Source of the DNA: Candidatus Pelagibacter sp. RS40
GTDB lineage: Bacteria; Pseudomonadota; Alphaproteobacteria; Pelagibacterales; Pelagibacteraceae
Direction: 5' to 3'
Assembly (NCBI RefSeq): GCF_002101295.1
Contig: NZ_CP020778.1
Coordinates: 1,095,001 to 1,159,000, forward strand
Length of the DNA: 64,000 nt
The notes under the pieces are model-generated. The model ran no database searches. It was not told the DNA's origin and saw only the letters and a list, made by a program, of their open reading frames with translations. The position numbers and the translations under genes are program-made. Shown in pieces: positions 27,028 through 47,859 of this stretch (the stretch's first letter is position 1; every line of letters begins with the position of its first letter).

Positions 27028-27708
27028 ATGAATAAAAATATTGATATTTTTTTACCATGCAAAAGCTCAAGTGTTAGAGTCAAAAATAAAAATATCAAAC
27101 CATTTTGTGATAAAAAATTTGGGTTATTTCAAATAAAAATTGAGCAACTTATTTTAATCAATCAAATTAATAAAATTGTAGTATCAACAAATGATAATAA
27201 AATTTTAAACTTTCTAGATAAAAGGAAATACTCTAAAATAATTATTGATAAAAGACCCGAAAATTTATGCCGGAGTTCAACTTCTACTGATGATTTAATA
27301 AAATATGTACCAAAAGTTATACAAACAGAACATATATTGTGGACACATGTTACATCTCCTTTTTTTAATAATAAAGATTATGAAAAAGCTATTAAATTGT
27401 ATTTTAAAAATATTACCAAAAAAGATTCACTGATGGGAGTTTCCCAAGCTCAAGAATTTATATATGATAAATATAAACCAATAAATTTTAATAAGAAAAA
27501 AGAGAAATGGCCAAGAACACAAACTTTAAAAAAATTATATTTTGTAAATAATACAGTTTTTATTACTTCGAGAAATAATTATCTCAAATACAAAGATAGA
27601 ATTGGAAAAAAACCTATTTTAATGAATATAGAAAAAATAAAATCTTTTGATATTGATTGGCCAGAAGATTTTAAAATAGCTGAAAAAATTTATGAAAGCA
27701 TTTTTTAA
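27028..27708 (+). CDS. CMP-sialic-acid-synthetase-like cytidylyltransferase
   Basis: A 226-residue protein of the NeuA/KdsB-type acid-sugar cytidylyltransferase family, which charges an acidic nonulosonic sugar with CMP. Visible features are the N-terminal VRVKNKNIKPF (where the family has a G-S-x-R-x-P-x-K-N motif; here the loop lacks the first Arg), KIVVSTNDNKIL, the substrate block HILWTHVTSPFF, and the C-terminal SFDIDWPEDFKIAEKIYE. The last is very typical of NeuA. The altered nucleotide loop is a caution: the activity or sugar may differ. The stop overlaps the next gene by 17 bases. No NeuB or NeuC-like gene is in this window. Confidence 0.7.
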   Translation: MNKNIDIFLPCKSSSVRVKNKNIKPFCDKKFGLFQIKIEQLILINQINKIVVSTNDNKILNFLDKRKYSKIIIDKRPENLCRSSTSTDDLIKYVPKVIQTEHILWTHVTSPFFNNKDYEKAIKLYFKNITKKDSLMGVSQAQEFIYDKYKPINFNKKKEKWPRTQTLKKLYFVNNTVFITSRNNYLKYKDRIGKKPILMNIEKIKSFDIDWPEDFKIAEKIYESIF

Positions 27709-28546
27709 AAAATTAAAATATAACCCTTTTGAAATTGCAGATGCTTTAGTATTAGATTTAATTAATTTTTATGAATTTATCTCTTTCTATGGATTAAAAA
27801 TTTTTGGAAAATATAATTTTTTAAGAAGAAATGAAATTTTAAGAAATAATTATAAAGATAAAAGGATTTTTTTATTAGGCAATGCTCCATCTTTAAATAA
27901 CTTTGATTTAAAAAAGTTAAGTAATGAAATTGTCATAATGGTAAATAGATCTTTTATGCATGAAGATTATGATAAAATAAAACCAAAATTTCATCTAATC
28001 TTAGATTCAAAAATGGAAACCGGTGAGTGGCCAATAGATTACATAGAAATTATTTTATCTAAAAATCCTGAAGTCAATTTATTATTAAATGCAAAATGGT
28101 TTAGTTTAGATAAGTTTAAAAAATACCAAAAATATAAAAATATTTTTTGGATCAAGAGCAAATCAATCTCTTTATTTTTTAATAATTTCAATAATAATAT
28201 AGCTTCTTTATTTTCTTCTACAGCAGTTGTTGAGCAAGGTTTAAGCCTTGCAATATATCTTGGTTCAAAAAAAATTTATATTATGGGAGTTGAGCTTAAT
28301 GGAATTTTGAATCTAATGAATGATAAGGAAAGTCATTTTAATGGAAAAGATCCAGATTATGAAAAATCTAATTCTTGGCATTGGGCTAGAGCTATGAATA
28401 GTAGTTCAAGAGGAATTAGACAATTTCACAGGATAAATGAGCTTTGTGAAAAAAATGGTATAAAATTAATTAATTTATCTAACACCGGACTTCTAGATTT
28501 TATTCCAAAAGATAATTATGAGACTATTCTAAAAAGTGATAAATAG
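27692..28546 (+). CDS. GT42/DUF115-like protein, possible sialyltransferase-like enzyme
   Basis: A 284-residue protein with GNAPSLNNFDLKKLSNEI at about residue 60, a pattern found in DUF115 proteins and GT42 sialyltransferases (the GN-x-P-S-L loop). The C-terminal half has STAVVEQGLSLAIYLGSKKI, IMGVELNG, and then HRINELCEKNGIKLINLS with a DFIPK near the end. The Asn of VNRSFMHED also fits this fold. It overlaps the CMP-sugar synthetase-like gene by 17 bases, which makes transfer of a CMP-activated sugar plausible. I give that as inference; the protein could also be a DUF115-type glycosyltransferase using another donor. Confidence 0.6.
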   Translation: MKAFFKKLKYNPFEIADALVLDLINFYEFISFYGLKIFGKYNFLRRNEILRNNYKDKRIFLLGNAPSLNNFDLKKLSNEIVIMVNRSFMHEDYDKIKPKFHLILDSKMETGEWPIDYIEIILSKNPEVNLLLNAKWFSLDKFKKYQKYKNIFWIKSKSISLFFNNFNNNIASLFSSTAVVEQGLSLAIYLGSKKIYIMGVELNGILNLMNDKESHFNGKDPDYEKSNSWHWARAMNSSSRGIRQFHRINELCEKNGIKLINLSNTGLLDFIPKDNYETILKSDK

Positions 28547-28552
28547 CTCTTA

Positions 28553-30361
28553 ATGTGTGGAATCTCTGGAATATTTAATTACTCTAATAAATATTTTAAT
28601 GGCCAACCCATAATTAAAAAAATAAATGATATTCAATCTGATAGGGGACCAGATGATAATGGTATTTTCGAGTCAAATAATAAAAAAATAATTTTTGGAC
28701 ATACGCGTTTATCAATTATTGATTTATCAAAAGACGCAAAACAACCTTTTATATCTAAAGATGAGGATTATATTTTAACATTTAATGGTGAGATTTATAA
28801 TTATAAAGAATTAAAAAATGAACTTATTAAAATGAATGTGTCATTTAAAAGTAATTCCGATACAGAAGTATTAGTCGAGACATACAAAATGTGGGGAACA
28901 AAATGTCTAGATAAATTAAGAGGAATGTTTGCCTTTGCTTTATGGGATAAAAAAAAAAATATTCTGTTTTTAGCCAGAGATCCATTTGGAATTAAACCTC
29001 TATATTATAGTAATATTGGAGGTATTTTTTATTTTGCCTCACAAATTAAAAGTCTACTTTCAATCAAAGAGATAAGTAAAACAAAAAATAATGAAAGTGT
29101 ATTTAATTATTATTTATGGGGAAATATTTTGGAACCATCAACAATATACAAAGATATAATGTCATTAGAAAAAGGCAGTTATAAAATTATAAATATTAAC
29201 GGAAGTATTCAAAATTTTAATTATGCAAATATTAAAGAAACTATACTAAAATCTGAAAATTTTACTTTTAAAAACAAATTAGAATCTCAAGAGTATTTAA
29301 AAGAGATAATTGATGACACGGTTAAAGCACATCAAATATCTGATGTACCGGTTCAAATCTTATTATCAGCAGGTATAGACTCAAACGCTATTCTTGCATC
29401 AACAAATAATACTTTTAAGGAAAATCTTACATCTTTAACTGTTGATTTTGGTTATGATAATAATGACGAAACCTACTTAGCTAGCTTATCGTCCAGAAAT
29501 AATAATATTAAACATAATGTCGAAAAAATCTCATTAAATGAGTCTGATGATTTATTAAAAAAATTTTTCAAAAAAATGGACTCCCCAACAAATGATGGTT
29601 TTAATAGTTTTTCAGCATCTTATGCTGCCAAAAAAAGTAAAAACAAAGTATTATTAACAGGCGTTGGAGGAGATGAATTATTTTCTGGTTATCCTAGTTT
29701 TAATAGAATTCCAAAAATCACAAAGATAATGAACATGCTACCCAGCAATATAGATCTCGAAAATTTTTATTTAAGTAAATTTGAAAAATTTTTAAAAAAC
29801 AACAAACTAAATACAAAAATTGCAGGTTTGTTTAAGTATGGTAAAAGTGTAGATAAAGCTTTTTTACTTCAAAGATCCTTGTTTTTGCCTGAAGAAATTC
29901 AAGAAATTTTACTCTCAAATCAAAATCAACTTAATATAAATCAATTGAATATATTTAATTCAATTGAAGATGACGTGAAAGGATTTGAGAATATGAGAGT
30001 TTCAATTATTTATTTAGAGATTAAATATTATCTATGTGCCAAATTACTTAAAGATATGGACTGGACATCTATGTCAAATTCGATTGAGATGAGAACACCA
30101 TTTGTGGATTGGATTTTTTTCAAAAAAATCATACCTCTAATTAAGTCAAATATAAAAGTTGAAAAAAAAGATCTTTTTAATTGCTATTCAGAAAAACTTC
30201 CCACAGAGATATATAAGCGAAAAAAAACAGGTTTTTCAATACCACATAAAAAACTTTTAAACCAATATACTAATTCTAATTACCACTTAAAATATTCTAA
30301 ACCGATTAAAGATTGGTCAATTTTTTGTTTTAAAAATTACCTAAGTTATGAAAAAAATTAA
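28553..30361 (+). CDS. AsnB-type glutamine amidotransferase (copy 1)
   Basis: A 602-residue class II glutamine amidotransferase. Cys2 begins the glutaminase domain (MCGISGIFNY), which continues with RGPDDNG, GHTRLSIIDLS, FNGEIYNYKELK and ARDPFGIKPLYY. The synthetase half has the ATP-binding LLSAGIDSNAI, GVGGDELFSGYP and the family motif SIEMRTPFVDW. Asparagine synthases of this shape found inside polysaccharide islands often amidate sugar acids rather than make asparagine; which applies here is not settled. It starts seven bases after the GT42-like gene and its stop overlaps the next glycosyltransferase start by 14 bases. A run of 11 A lies at 28949-28959. Confidence 0.88.
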   Translation: MCGISGIFNYSNKYFNGQPIIKKINDIQSDRGPDDNGIFESNNKKIIFGHTRLSIIDLSKDAKQPFISKDEDYILTFNGEIYNYKELKNELIKMNVSFKSNSDTEVLVETYKMWGTKCLDKLRGMFAFALWDKKKNILFLARDPFGIKPLYYSNIGGIFYFASQIKSLLSIKEISKTKNNESVFNYYLWGNILEPSTIYKDIMSLEKGSYKIININGSIQNFNYANIKETILKSENFTFKNKLESQEYLKEIIDDTVKAHQISDVPVQILLSAGIDSNAILASTNNTFKENLTSLTVDFGYDNNDETYLASLSSRNNNIKHNVEKISLNESDDLLKKFFKKMDSPTNDGFNSFSASYAAKKSKNKVLLTGVGGDELFSGYPSFNRIPKITKIMNMLPSNIDLENFYLSKFEKFLKNNKLNTKIAGLFKYGKSVDKAFLLQRSLFLPEEIQEILLSNQNQLNINQLNIFNSIEDDVKGFENMRVSIIYLEIKYYLCAKLLKDMDWTSMSNSIEMRTPFVDWIFFKKIIPLIKSNIKVEKKDLFNCYSEKLPTEIYKRKKTGFSIPHKKLLNQYTNSNYHLKYSKPIKDWSIFCFKNYLSYEKN

Positions 30362-38356: not shown

Positions 38357-39526
38357 TTAGTTAATCATTAATTTTTCATTTATTAAAGACTCCAATTTTT
38401 TAAGATATTTCTCCCAATTATTTTCTTTTGAATAATTTTGTGCATTTAAGGAAAGTTCTTTTAGCAAAATTTTGTTATCTGCTAATAGAGTTAATTTATC
38501 AACAATTGAATTAATACTTCTTATAGGGACAACAAATCCACAATTAGATCTTCTAACAAAATCACCAGCTCCAGTATTTTCAGTTACTATAACAGGACAT
38601 CCAGCAGCTGCTACCTCTAATATTGTATAAGCAAATCCTTCTTCTATACTTGGCAGGACATATGCATGACAGGTATTTATAAGATCATTTAATTTTAAAT
38701 GATTTACATGCCCATAAGTAATAATATTTTCTTGTTGTAATTTTTTTTCATAAAAATGATTATCTGAAGTTTTTGACCCAACAACATGCAGTCTTTTGTT
38801 AGGATGTTTAAATTTTTTAAAAGCTTCAATAAGATAATGCAAACCTTTTCTTACAGATTTAGAAGCTAAAAATAATATGTCAAAGTATGTATTACTTTTT
38901 TTTATATTTTCATTTCTAAAAAAAATTTTATTGTTAACACCAAATTCTATAACTTTAACTTTATCATTTAACTTGTCTCCAAAGGTTGATTTATTAAAAT
39001 TAGATGGAACCAATATCATATCTGCTTCTTCGTACTCTTCTCTTTCTCTATCTAAATACCATTTCTTTATTGGTGTATATTCTAAATTAAGACTTTTATA
39101 CTCTTCTTGTAAAATATTATTCTGAAAATCTATGTGAGTTGAAAGTCTGTCACAGACATAAAACTTGCCTTTGCTTTTAATATTTTTTCCAGATTCAAGT
39201 CCACATTTAGATTGGGCAATTAAAACATCTATTTCATAGTCTTTGTCGATTATTTTTGAGGTAATTTTGTCAATTTGTTTATGTGCATTTATATTTAAGA
39301 AATGATCAATTTGTTTAAATGATTTGAGTTTAGCTATAGGTTCTCTTAAAACTCTTGTTAAACCATGCGCTACCACAAATCTTTTTGGAATTCCTTCTTT
39401 TTTTAATTTAAACCACGGATATCCAGAAATAATTTTTGATAATTGATTTTTTTTATATAATTCTTTTCCTATTTCAAAATGGTGAAATTTTCCTGCCGAA
39501 TTCAGCAGATATTTTCTTTTTTTCAT
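38357..39526 (-). CDS. Glycosyltransferase family 4
   Basis: A 389-residue GT-B enzyme. The N-terminal half includes HHFEIGKELYKKNQLSKIIS and a CDRLSTHIDFQNNIL segment; the C-terminal half has LFLASKSVRKGLHYLIEAFK, LHVVGSKTSDN and the donor block LPSIEEGFAYTILEVAAAGC followed by PVIVTENTGAGDFV. This is a standard GT4 arrangement. Its start shares one base with the stop of the upstream asparagine-synthase-like gene, so the minus-strand genes from 43372 down to 38357 run as one coupled block. Confidence 0.85.
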   Translation of the reverse strand: MKKRKYLLNSAGKFHHFEIGKELYKKNQLSKIISGYPWFKLKKEGIPKRFVVAHGLTRVLREPIAKLKSFKQIDHFLNINAHKQIDKITSKIIDKDYEIDVLIAQSKCGLESGKNIKSKGKFYVCDRLSTHIDFQNNILQEEYKSLNLEYTPIKKWYLDREREEYEEADMILVPSNFNKSTFGDKLNDKVKVIEFGVNNKIFFRNENIKKSNTYFDILFLASKSVRKGLHYLIEAFKKFKHPNKRLHVVGSKTSDNHFYEKKLQQENIITYGHVNHLKLNDLINTCHAYVLPSIEEGFAYTILEVAAAGCPVIVTENTGAGDFVRRSNCGFVVPIRSINSIVDKLTLLADNKILLKELSLNAQNYSKENNWEKYLKKLESLINEKLMIN

Positions 39527-41319
39527 TAATTATTATTAAACATGTTCTTGTACCAAAGACCATAACTATAAGTTCTAAAAAAAATATCATAATTTTTTTT
39601 ATTATTTGTAAGATTTATTAATTTTTCATTATTAATTAGAGGTATATTTTTAAAGTCATAAAATATCATCTCTTTCATTTTATTTAAATCTTTATCTATA
39701 TATCCATATAGGTTTGAAGCAAATGCGAATTTAGGTTTATTTTTTAAGTATAAAGCCATCATAGAATGATTTCTTAATAGAGATTTAGTTCCGTTTTTAA
39801 AATGTCTTTCTCTTAATAATTCAGATGCAAAAAGATTTATGTCATCATATAAAAAAGGAACTCTGCATTCAATTCCATATGCCATAGAATTTTTATCTTC
39901 ATAATCTAAAAAGGATTGCATTCCCCAATGAGACTTAAAATTTAGGATAATATTTTCCAAAATATTATTATCAATTTTTTTGTAGAAATTAAAATCCTTA
40001 TAATCACAATCAATATTAAGGTGTTTAATTCGCTTTTTTAATTGAAATTGTTTATTTTTATTCAATAATTTAATATTGATTATTTCTTTAATTGATCGCA
40101 AAAAAAAATTTGTTGTTGGATTGAATTTTTTAAATTTATTTATTTCTTTAAAAAACTTAATGAAGTTAAACCTAGTCAACAAATCAGCTAAATAACCATA
40201 TACATGCAAAGAGTATCCTAAAAAGTTTTCATCACCTCCATTTCCAGTAAACAGAACTTTGAATCCATCCTCTGAAACTTTCTTACATAAAAAATTGTGC
40301 ATAGTACTAGAAGCGTCTGGTGTAGGCTGATCTAGATCGTATATTGTTTTTTGATGATGACTAAAAAAATTCAATTCATCTTCAAATACATAATGCTGTT
40401 TAAACTTGTAATCTTTAACTATTTTTTTAATATTTTCATTTTCAACATTTGGCTTATTTAATATAGATGAAAATGTATGTATTTCTTTATCTTTTAAATT
40501 GTTCTTAAGGATAATGCTTAATAATGAAGAATCTAAACCTCCTGATAATAAACAGGCAACTTTTTTATGTTCCGTTATAGTGTGATATTTGACCGACTTA
40601 TCAAAGATTTTTTCGAATTCATCATCATTTTTTTTAAATAAATTTTTTTTTTCGTTTATGTATTTGTGTATTTTAAAGCTTCTATTATTTAAATCATAAA
40701 CTACAAGATTACCAGGTTCTAGAATTTTAATATTTCTTATTAGAGTATTGCTAAATCCAATCAATTGACGATGTGCAATAAAATTTACTACTTCATGCTC
40801 ATCTAAAACAATAGATTTTTTAACATGAATGTTCTTTAATAAAGTTTTGATTTCAGAGGCAAATATAAATACATTTGAGTTGGCAAAATAAAATAATGGT
40901 TTAATTCCAACTCTATCTCTAACAATTAGGATTCTATTTTTATTTTTATCATATATTGCAATTGCAAACATGCCCTTAATGTAATCAGTAAAATTTAGAC
41001 CAAACTTTGAGTAAAGTTTTAAAATAATTTCTGTATCAGTATTACTTTTCAAATCTTCATTTGAAAAAAATTCTTTTTTTAGATCTTTGTAATTATAAAT
41101 AGAGCCATTAAAAATTATAACATTTCCTGTGTTATCATCTGTCATAGGTTGTTTGGATTTATCAGATAAATCCATTATTTTTAGTAAAGCATGCATAAAA
41201 CAGAAATTTTTATGTACAAAAAGATTTTGACTGTCGGGACCTCTATGCTCCATTGATTTGAGCATTAGATCTCTCTCAGCAGAACTATATTCACCTATAA
41301 TACCAGCTAAACCGCACAT
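39526..41319 (-). CDS. AsnB-type glutamine amidotransferase (copy 2)
   Basis: A 597-residue class II amidotransferase with Cys2 in MCGLAGIIGEYS, then EHRGPDSQN, FNGSIYNYKDLK and VRDRVGIKPLFYFA in the glutaminase half, and CLLSGGLDSSLLSIIL, FTGNGGDENFLGYS and GIECRVPFLYDDI in the synthetase half. It is clearly a different protein from copy 1 at 28553 although from the same family, so the island makes two separate amidotransferases. Likely roles are asparagine synthesis or amidation of sugar acids (inference). It lies one base after the FkbM methyltransferase gene in a minus-strand block. Confidence 0.88.
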   Translation of the reverse strand: MCGLAGIIGEYSSAERDLMLKSMEHRGPDSQNLFVHKNFCFMHALLKIMDLSDKSKQPMTDDNTGNVIIFNGSIYNYKDLKKEFFSNEDLKSNTDTEIILKLYSKFGLNFTDYIKGMFAIAIYDKNKNRILIVRDRVGIKPLFYFANSNVFIFASEIKTLLKNIHVKKSIVLDEHEVVNFIAHRQLIGFSNTLIRNIKILEPGNLVVYDLNNRSFKIHKYINEKKNLFKKNDDEFEKIFDKSVKYHTITEHKKVACLLSGGLDSSLLSIILKNNLKDKEIHTFSSILNKPNVENENIKKIVKDYKFKQHYVFEDELNFFSHHQKTIYDLDQPTPDASSTMHNFLCKKVSEDGFKVLFTGNGGDENFLGYSLHVYGYLADLLTRFNFIKFFKEINKFKKFNPTTNFFLRSIKEIINIKLLNKNKQFQLKKRIKHLNIDCDYKDFNFYKKIDNNILENIILNFKSHWGMQSFLDYEDKNSMAYGIECRVPFLYDDINLFASELLRERHFKNGTKSLLRNHSMMALYLKNKPKFAFASNLYGYIDKDLNKMKEMIFYDFKNIPLINNEKLINLTNNKKNYDIFFRTYSYGLWYKNMFNNN

Positions 41320-46338: not shown

Positions 46339-47859
46339 ATGAAAATTCTAGATTGCACTCTTAGAGATGGAGGATATTACACCGGTTGGGATTTTAGTGA
46401 TGATTTGGTCAATAATTATTTAGATTTAGCCAAACATCTTCCAATAAATATTGTTGAAGTAGGTTATAGAGGCAATAGAAAAAAAAAATCTTATTTTGGT
46501 GAATATTATTTTCTTACAAAAACAAAACTACAAAACATAAAAAAGAAAATTGGCAATAGAACAAAGATTTCAATTATGATTGATTTGAAAGATTGGAAAA
46601 CACCAAAAGAATTAGAATTGAATTTAAAAGATTGCAGATCATGTGTAGATTTAGTCAGATTTGCAGTTAACCCAAGAAACTTGTCAAAGATTAAAAAATA
46701 CTTAGAGATTACAAAAAAACTGGGTTTTACAGTAGCGGTTAATTTAATGTACGTCCATTTAACTCTTAAAGATAAAAAAATAATTTCAAATGTTATTAAA
46801 TTAAATAAGTATTACGATATTTTGTATTTAGTTGACTCTTACGGAACATTAATTCCTGGAGACGTAGGTAATATTATAAAGAAAATTAAATTAATAGATA
46901 AAAATTTAAAAATTGGATTTCATAGTCATAATAATTTAGAGCTAGCACTTTCAAATTCAATTGAGGCAATTGATCATAAAGTAGATTTTGTAGACTGTAC
47001 TTTTACAGGTATGGGAAGAGGGGCTGGAAACTTAAAAACTGAATTGCTGTTATCTTATTTAGGAATTAGGTTGAATAAAATTAAAATTAAAAACTTCAAA
47101 AATATTGGCAATGTGGTTGATAAGTTTGAGGAGATTAGAAATGAGGAAAAATGGGGGGCTACTTTGCCCTATATGATATCAGGTTCTACAAATTCTCCTC
47201 AATCAGAAGCAATGCAATTAATAAAATCTAAAAGATATGATATGACAGACATTGTATCATATCTTTTTAAAAAAAAGGAAAAAAAAATTAATATTATCAA
47301 AAAATTAAATTTTAAAAAAAAAGAAGTTTTAATTATTGGTGGAGGAATTACAGTTAAAAAAAAAATAAATTATCTTCAAGAATTTCTAAAAGAAAAGAAA
47401 AATCTTTTTGTAATTTTTTCTAGCTCAAGAAATACAGAGTTATTCAAAAATTTATCTGCAAGATCTGTTACATGCATAACAGGAAATGAAATATTGAAAA
47501 TTAATAAGAATTATTTAAACAAAAATAAATTCATTATTAATAATTTGATAGATGATAAAACTTTACTACCAAAAAAAAATCAAAACTTTTTTAAATTAAA
47601 AAAAAATCTACTTTCAAAAAAAATTAATAATTCACCTTTAGCTATATCTTTAGCTGCAGCCAAAGAAATAAATGCAAAAAAAATTTTTCTTATAGGATTT
47701 GATGGATTTAATAAAACTGACAAGATAAATAACTATAGTTTATTTAACGAAAATCAAAAAATTATAAATTTTTATGATAAGAGAATGAATATGGTTTTTT
47801 TAAGCGAAACAAGTTATGATGTTAAAAATAGAACTTCAATTTTCAAATATTTAAAATGA
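46339..47859 (+). CDS. Aldolase (HMGL-like) fused to a DUF115-like domain
   Basis: A 506-residue fusion. Residues 1 to about 260 form a DRE-TIM metallolyase domain: KILDCTLRDGGYYTGWDFSD (catalytic Asp and Arg), DLVRFAVNPRN, FHSHNNLELALSNSIEAI (metal-binding His-x-His), and GMGRGAGNLKTEL. The rest, from about 320, has a second domain with KKEVLIIGGGITVKKKINYL, FVIFSSSRNTELF and SLAAAKEINAKKIFLIGFDG, like a DUF115 protein and unlike the usual dimerisation domain of these aldolases. It resembles the protein at 27692 in its last part. Pyruvate-type aldol chemistry on a sugar precursor is likely; the product is unknown. Confidence 0.8.
   Translation: MKILDCTLRDGGYYTGWDFSDDLVNNYLDLAKHLPINIVEVGYRGNRKKKSYFGEYYFLTKTKLQNIKKKIGNRTKISIMIDLKDWKTPKELELNLKDCRSCVDLVRFAVNPRNLSKIKKYLEITKKLGFTVAVNLMYVHLTLKDKKIISNVIKLNKYYDILYLVDSYGTLIPGDVGNIIKKIKLIDKNLKIGFHSHNNLELALSNSIEAIDHKVDFVDCTFTGMGRGAGNLKTELLLSYLGIRLNKIKIKNFKNIGNVVDKFEEIRNEEKWGATLPYMISGSTNSPQSEAMQLIKSKRYDMTDIVSYLFKKKEKKINIIKKLNFKKKEVLIIGGGITVKKKINYLQEFLKEKKNLFVIFSSSRNTELFKNLSARSVTCITGNEILKINKNYLNKNKFIINNLIDDKTLLPKKNQNFFKLKKNLLSKKINNSPLAISLAAAKEINAKKIFLIGFDGFNKTDKINNYSLFNENQKIINFYDKRMNMVFLSETSYDVKNRTSIFKYLK

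Follow-up and report, generated by a model that had tools for sequence, protein, structure and literature searches.

The predicted protein encoded at 46339-47859 of the window (the whole stretch of 64,000 nucleotides of Candidatus Pelagibacter sp. RS40 DNA that was analysed) joins an HMGL-like aldolase barrel to a C-terminal domain of the MptE/DUF115/Maf fold, and in 70 of 76 testable loci, taken from the best 80 of at least 579, its relatives have beside them the gene of a Kdo- or PseF-related cytidylyltransferase. It is this gene company of the aldolase that constitutes the new point, the two-domain form itself being common. The reading that we favour, and consider likelier to be right than wrong, is that the protein acts as a metal-dependent pyruvate aldolase in a CMP-ulosonic-acid pathway; the system would then probably supply the cell surface with an unusual sialic-acid-like sugar, made by a non-textbook route.

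The sialic-acid-like sugars that cover bacterial surfaces control phage and host recognition, SAR11 is one of the most abundant bacterial groups of the ocean and, to our knowledge, the synthases known for these sugars use PEP. If the proposal is true, a second widespread route, starting from another enzyme class, would lead to hidden surface sugars, SAR11 included, and a function would be at hand for a family that goes under the names “aldolase catalytic domain-containing protein” and “hypothetical protein”.

The aldolase barrel and the C-terminal domain

The features of the window to which reference is made are the following.

46339-47859, + strand: ORF of 506 aa, two-domain protein made of an HMGL-like barrel and a C-terminal MptE/DUF115/Maf-fold domain
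46339..47283, + strand: HMGL-like (DRE-TIM) aldolase domain, residues 1-315 (PF00682, 3dxi, Foldseek)
46363..46368, + strand: R9-D10 of the DRE signature, aligned with the R-D of DmpG (1nvm)
46456-46458, + strand: E40 of the DRE signature, identical in 91 of 91 aligned sequences
46921..46929, + strand: H195-x-H197, aligned with the HxH of 1nvm
47290..47856, + strand: C-terminal MptE/DUF115/Maf-fold domain, residues 318-506 (conserved motifs, AlphaFold2 model, structure matches)
27028..27708, + strand: cytidylyltransferase of the aldolase-linked kind, cluster 2 (PF02348, E 3e-12)
27692..28546, + strand: DUF115/MptE-like protein (PF01973, E 4.6e-12)

The first-pass annotation, made from the letters of the window, had recognized an aldolase barrel with its metal residues, and this was borne out: PF00682 scores 61.5 bits against a cut-off of 29, placing the barrel among the HMGL-like/DRE-TIM metallolyases, and R9, D10, E40, H195, H197 and N231 are invariant in all 91 aligned sequences (89 of them distinct, the window protein included). 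From what is known of the family, R9 is presumably the DRE arginine, D10 the metal-ligand aspartate, and H195 and H197 further metal ligands. The model of the whole 506-aa protein obtained with AlphaFold2 has a pLDDT of 88 and a pTM of 0.86.

The structure closest to the barrel is that of BVU_2661 from Bacteroides vulgatus (PDB 3DXI), matched by phmmer over residues 1-315 (its residues 3-310 of 320) at E 2e-69 and by Foldseek at E 3e-26 with 39% identity over 309 columns. Its title, “N-terminal domain of a putative aldolase (BVU_2661)”, gives no function beyond “putative aldolase” and indicates that the depositors regarded the solved part as belonging to a larger protein, as is the case for the window protein; a literature search for 3DXI and aldolase found no paper. 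The best named relatives of the barrel are the 4-hydroxy-2-oxovalerate aldolases (PRK08195, 101 bits), enzymes that use pyruvate, and TIGR03217, the equivalog model of this activity, is matched with 90.1 bits, short of its cut-off of 286. With one of them, DmpG/BphI (1NVM), the window aldolase shares the HMGL barrel and the metal site formed by R-D and HxH; on the other hand, the C-terminal part of DmpG is of another kind and the position of its His21, which we take to be catalytic, is occupied in the window aldolase by Tyr13, identical in 91 of 91 sequences, so that the reaction may differ.

Folded alone, residues 318-506 give a confident, separate domain (AlphaFold2, pLDDT 83, pTM 0.83) whose top structural match is the Maf flagellin glycosyltransferase 5mu5 (Z 13.3, 181 aligned residues, rmsd 3.5), with HPPK/MptE of M. 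jannaschii (8sd5, Z 12.6) and SteA (Z 12.5) close behind and the thiamin pyrophosphokinases as more distant fold matches; unlike Maf, the domain has only ~190 residues and is without the other Maf domains. Foldseek, at E<=1e-3, returned three 8sd5 chains only (E 2e-5 to MptE). Thus, the description of the second domain as DUF115-like holds at the level of the fold, whereas its alleged resemblance to the 27692 protein shrinks to a remote kinship, the direct comparison being weak (53 columns, E 0.003, probability 11%). An unrelated oligomerization domain, the other outcome envisaged, was not seen, the fold being of an enzyme type and carrying conserved motifs, although oligomerization is possible as an additional role.

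These motifs are GGG (334-336), GFDG (453-456), E471 and Y493; G336, G453, D455 and G456 are kept in 88-89 of 91 sequences, E471 and Y493 in 81-82 of 91, and together they look like a binding or active site. PF01973 (MptE-like) matches 32 of 63 aligned copies of the domain at E<=0.1 (best 7e-7) and does not match the window copy, which has I-T where many relatives carry the P-S of a GxGPS motif. The profile of the domain also matches the GT42 enzyme Cst-II in the regions of GxGPS and GxDxY, a similarity that is weak and unsafe (whole-sequence E 0.1); Cst-II does not appear among the structural matches listed for residues 318-506, which is no argument against kinship. PF01973 is identified in the literature as the domain at the centre of Maf, with a reported similarity to the sialyltransferase Cst-II, and the Maf enzymes are described as using CMP-nonulosonates as donors, Kdo being also accepted (PMC11339370). 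The C-terminal domain probably handles a CMP sugar or its precursor.

Spread of the family and its gene company

The joining of the two domains had been considered unusual, a view that did not survive the search for the same arrangement, since in this widespread family the combination is usual and by no means an oddity. The genome scan found at least 579 related stretches, and of the best 80, on which the work was done, 74 have the two-domain length (69 ORFs of 480-599 aa and five frames of 534-573 aa handled separately), a proportion that does not describe the family as a whole because the choice of the best 80 favours full-length matches. In Pelagibacteraceae, 23 of the 197 genomes sampled carry a relative (E<=1e-20), every one in an open frame of 512-548 aa, one match (G185) being flagged with an internal stop. 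Among 398 Pseudomonadota genomes 12 match at E<=1e-15 and just two have frames >500 aa, the other 10 looking, by their length, like ordinary single-domain aldolases. Viral contigs contained no relative of the aldolase, phages yielded two records, each matched over less than half of the query, and 127 plasmid records were found, none reaching 80% query coverage, the Leisingera one being nonetheless two-domain.

The suspicion of a sequencing artefact could be dismissed: a sister of the window protein, 97% identical, is read in the same frame (L004 and L026, one genome), dN/dS between the two is 0.05 for the barrel and 0.07 for the C-terminal domain and, as judged from these sequences, both domains are under purifying selection. 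The plasmid records read bear the annotation “aldolase catalytic domain-containing protein” or “hypothetical protein”, and a literature search, with most subscription papers outside its reach, found neither a paper on the two-domain family nor a pyruvate-aldolase route to CMP-ulosonates; no function is assigned to the family in the sources found.

The neighbours of the aldolase in the best 80 loci were defined by greedy ORF calling and clustering, from which three recurrent genes emerged, and then followed by profile searches; the profiles being made from members of the same loci, the counts describe linkage and the positions serve as their control. The figure of 70 out of 76, from which four loci ending at the aldolase (L047, L064, L067, L073) are omitted, is the sum of 65 of the 71 loci having a downstream ORF, in which the cytidylyltransferase is encoded on the same strand at +1 to +4, and of all five loci missed by the ORF script, in one of which (L068) it lies upstream. 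Of the 65, 35 are nearest to the Kdo-transferase-like cluster 1 and 30 to the PseF-related cluster 2. As to position, 52 cytidylyltransferase hits are found at +1 compared to 11 in all upstream places together and three at +5 or beyond. The six loci without linkage are L026 (the sister of the window, with the gene pair split), L084 (two ORFs only before the end of the contig), L096, L097, L103 (cytidylyltransferase at +5) and L104.

The same association is met in SAR11, where the next ORF is a cytidylyltransferase in 18 of 20 regions, on the opposite strand in L109; these regions derive from 22 Pelagibacteraceae matches outside the genome of the window (G135 and G044 omitted), with two of them, the sister G168 and G072, already part of the 80 loci. 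On the contrary, none of six single-domain relatives (L097, L104, L139, L140, L141, L143) has a cytidylyltransferase within 5-10 kb on each side; small as this number is, it suggests that the second domain is associated with CMP activation. A Streptomyces relative (L142), with an ambiguous domain count, a HAD-like frame and no cytidylyltransferase match, is left outside this count. The single-domain aldolase of Paraburkholderia pSYM (L141:3261-8809) is found between SDR genes and an annotated phosphoserine aminotransferase and HAD-IA gene, and that of Mesorhizobium (L097) is preceded by an ORF that looks, by sight, SDR-like; these two perhaps belong to a distinct pathway.

The three cluster-1 cytidylyltransferases tested all score above the subfamily cut-offs of two NCBIfam models of 3-deoxy-manno-octulosonate cytidylyltransferase (260-278 bits vs 255 and 227-240 vs 193) but miss the KdsB equivalog cut-offs (TIGR00466, 135-150 vs 155), while those of cluster 2 remain far under the PseF cut-off of 205.7 (79.3 bits for L034), so that their true substrates may differ from those of KdsB and PseF. 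A cluster-0 HAD hydrolase is found beside the aldolase in 46 of 76 loci (41 of 65 within -1 to +4, plus five of five), the remaining 24 of the 65 being without it; HADs assigned elsewhere (cluster 17 and the +2 gene of L076) are excluded from the count. Since the best NCBIfam score of a cassette HAD is 27.5 bits, the cut-off being 153, and another HAD gave none, no clear named family emerges and it is we who infer a phosphatase. In the Leisingera plasmid the succession is annotated “aldolase catalytic domain-containing protein”, “3-deoxy-manno-octulosonate cytidylyltransferase” and “HAD family hydrolase”. In six Bacteroidota cassettes the next gene is of the GT29 sialyltransferase type (PF00777 above cut-off in 6/6), and two cassettes continue with a KDG-kinase-like gene that stays under the NCBIfam cut-offs.

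Other genes recur in smaller groups. Three SAR11 cassettes (L118, L119, L121) have a radical SAM-SPASM protein downstream, accompanied in L118 and L121 by an SDR; L121 and L119 also encode a protein of 436-445 aa without Pfam match, and L118 has an ORF of similar size. A variant cassette (L078, L082, L086, L100, L103), for which one representative per gene was searched against Pfam, contains an LdpA-like iron-sulphur protein, an HpcH/HpaI aldolase, another HAD and a protein of ~609 aa without Pfam match.

Using as phmmer queries (E<=1e-5) the copies present in the genome of the window, no KdsA was found among the ORFs called in the 80 loci, and PEP mutase was found in none of the 80 loci and in one of the 20 SAR11 regions. 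NeuB occurs in the flanks of 13 of the 80 loci (positions +1 to +4 being free of it) and in nine of the 20 SAR11 regions, within three ORFs of the aldolase in L109, L117 and L123, which indicates that some cassettes lie in or beside ordinary nonulosonate loci; given these flanking genes, and the KdsA and NeuB present elsewhere in the genome of the window, the cytidylyltransferase could serve another synthase.

A possible route to CMP-ulosonates

Starting from the folds, the conserved residues, the gene linkage and the failure to find KdsA or PEP mutase beside the cassettes, we infer the donor, the acceptor, the direction of the reaction, the dephosphorylation and the role of the second domain. 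Aldolases of the DmpG type add the enolate of pyruvate, held at a divalent metal, to an aldehyde. By analogy, a pyruvate enolate formed at the metal of the barrel would attack a sugar aldehyde or a sugar phosphate, yielding a 3-deoxy-2-ulosonate that could resemble KDG, Kdo or a nonulosonate; the HAD hydrolase present in most loci would strip the phosphate, the cytidylyltransferase linked to the aldolase (in the window, 27028) would convert the acid into a CMP-ulosonate, and a glycosyltransferase would place the ulosonate on the surface polysaccharide encoded by the surrounding genes. Triose-, tetrose- or pentose-phosphates as acceptors would be in keeping with a subsequent phosphatase step.

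A linear 3-deoxy-2-ulosonate, subsequently activated as CMP-ulosonate, is the most probable product. An unusual keto sugar (here, an acid) destined for a surface glycan, as suggested in the first-pass annotation, is a probable outcome in view of the cytidylyltransferase linkage, but the “branched” sugar mentioned as its alternative does not fit, since a pyruvate aldol addition of the DmpG type would give a linear chain. The same polypeptide may both make the sugar and use it, as that annotation also proposed. The comparison with the Kdo and nonulosonate pathways (KdsA-KdsC-KdsB; NeuB-NeuA) reveals a CMP-ulosonate-synthetase-type gene, often with a HAD, also in the aldolase cassettes, whereas the PEP-dependent synthase of those pathways has in the cassettes a pyruvate-type aldolase as its counterpart, which would replace KdsA/NeuB. 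The wider proposal, namely that a PEP-independent class II (metal) pyruvate-aldolase route extends across Bacteroidota, Proteobacteria and SAR11, with a single polypeptide combining the ulosonate maker with a transfer or CMP-sensing domain of Maf/sialyltransferase fold and with sugar acids unrecognised in surface glycans as its products, is put forward tentatively, its chances being somewhat below even.

Concerning the Maf/MptE-fold domain, this most likely would bind the CMP-ulosonate or its precursor, either as a transferase domain or as a sensor of the product. That it has instead no transferase role, being a nucleotide- or substrate-binding regulator or the relic of a diphosphokinase, is a reading to which we give very nearly an even chance and which, concerning the C-terminal domain only, is compatible with the pyruvate-aldolase pathway. 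Indeed, this fold is found not in Maf alone but also in MptE, SteA and thiamin pyrophosphokinase, and the presence of GT29-type genes by six cassettes points to a transferase that can be a protein of its own; the resemblance of G336, G453, D455, G456, E471 and Y493 to an active or binding site and the fact that the second domain accompanies the cytidylyltransferase linkage speak for an active part, albeit one that a sensor could also play.

Two other readings concern the reaction itself. Claisen-type synthases such as LeuA, citramalate and homocitrate synthase, which join a 2-oxo acid and acetyl-CoA, belong to the same superfamily, and LeuA and citramalate synthase do match the barrel; such a product would decorate the glycan as an acyl or carboxyl group. 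Nevertheless, these matches are weaker than those of the aldolases (50.6 bits for the best LeuA model vs 101 for PRK08195), and linkage to a Kdo-type cytidylyltransferase would be unexpected for a malate-type product, so that a Claisen reaction is improbable. Similarly unlikely is a role in breakdown, in which the aldolase would split a keto-deoxy sugar acid into pyruvate and an aldehyde: the relatives of DmpG are catabolic and the KDG-kinase-like gene adjoins two cassettes, but the position of the cassettes among glycan-assembly genes, beside CMP activation, makes little sense for catabolism. Finally, a phosphonate pathway is very improbable, for although FR-900098-like routes pair HMGL-type synthases with CTP-transferase enzymes giving CMP-phosphonates and the genome of the window encodes elsewhere a fusion of PEP mutase with a cytidylyltransferase-like domain, PEP mutase is virtually absent from the cassette surroundings and the cluster-1 cytidylyltransferases are Kdo-type at the subfamily level.

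The window and its genome

In the window the aldolase ORF lies within a surface-polysaccharide region comprising glycosyltransferases, FkbM-type proteins, a WecG-type gene and Gmd, and the pair formed with the cytidylyltransferase is split, the latter being located 18.6 kb upstream at 27028. This cytidylyltransferase is up to 54% identical to cassette members, is the only match in the genome to the cytidylyltransferase profile A3 and reaches 67.5 bits with PseF, under the equivalog cut-off of 205.7. Its gene is overlapped by 17 nt by that of the 27692 protein, a candidate transferase for the CMP sugar, which is present in three of 197 Pelagibacteraceae genomes, that of the window included, and which has no sequence match in the PDB at E<=5. 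In the sister genome (G168) the cytidylyltransferase and the DUF115 gene are likewise together, and genes of the same size stand beside the aldolase.

A dedicated HAD partner was sought in the genome of the window and not found, the sole match to the HAD profile A2 (G000:C1:1212586, E 1.5e-16) being ~26% identical to the cassette HADs. Both this and the distance of 18.6 kb between aldolase and cytidylyltransferase weigh against the favoured reading. The notion that the genome has no other ulosonate synthase was ruled out by the finding elsewhere of KdsA, which passes the equivalog cut-offs, and of two NeuB-family genes; since KdsA and a NeuB locus are present, the assignment of 27028 to the aldolase is based on family membership, not on exclusion.

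The NeuB-family genes belong to a locus (L134:6619-14764) that appears, by sight, legionaminate-like and contains both of them together with a cytidylyltransferase-like frame (PF02348, E 2e-5). The PEP mutase fused to a cytidylyltransferase-like domain is found at L134:2168-3469 (G000:C1, about 785.2-786.5 kb; PF13714, 163.7 bits; PF01467, 51.8 bits), beside an ORF that looks, by sight, like a phosphonopyruvate decarboxylase; this SAR11 organism may make phosphonates. Two asparagine-synthase-like genes (PF00733) are located in the glycan region of the window, at 28553-30361 and 39526-41319.
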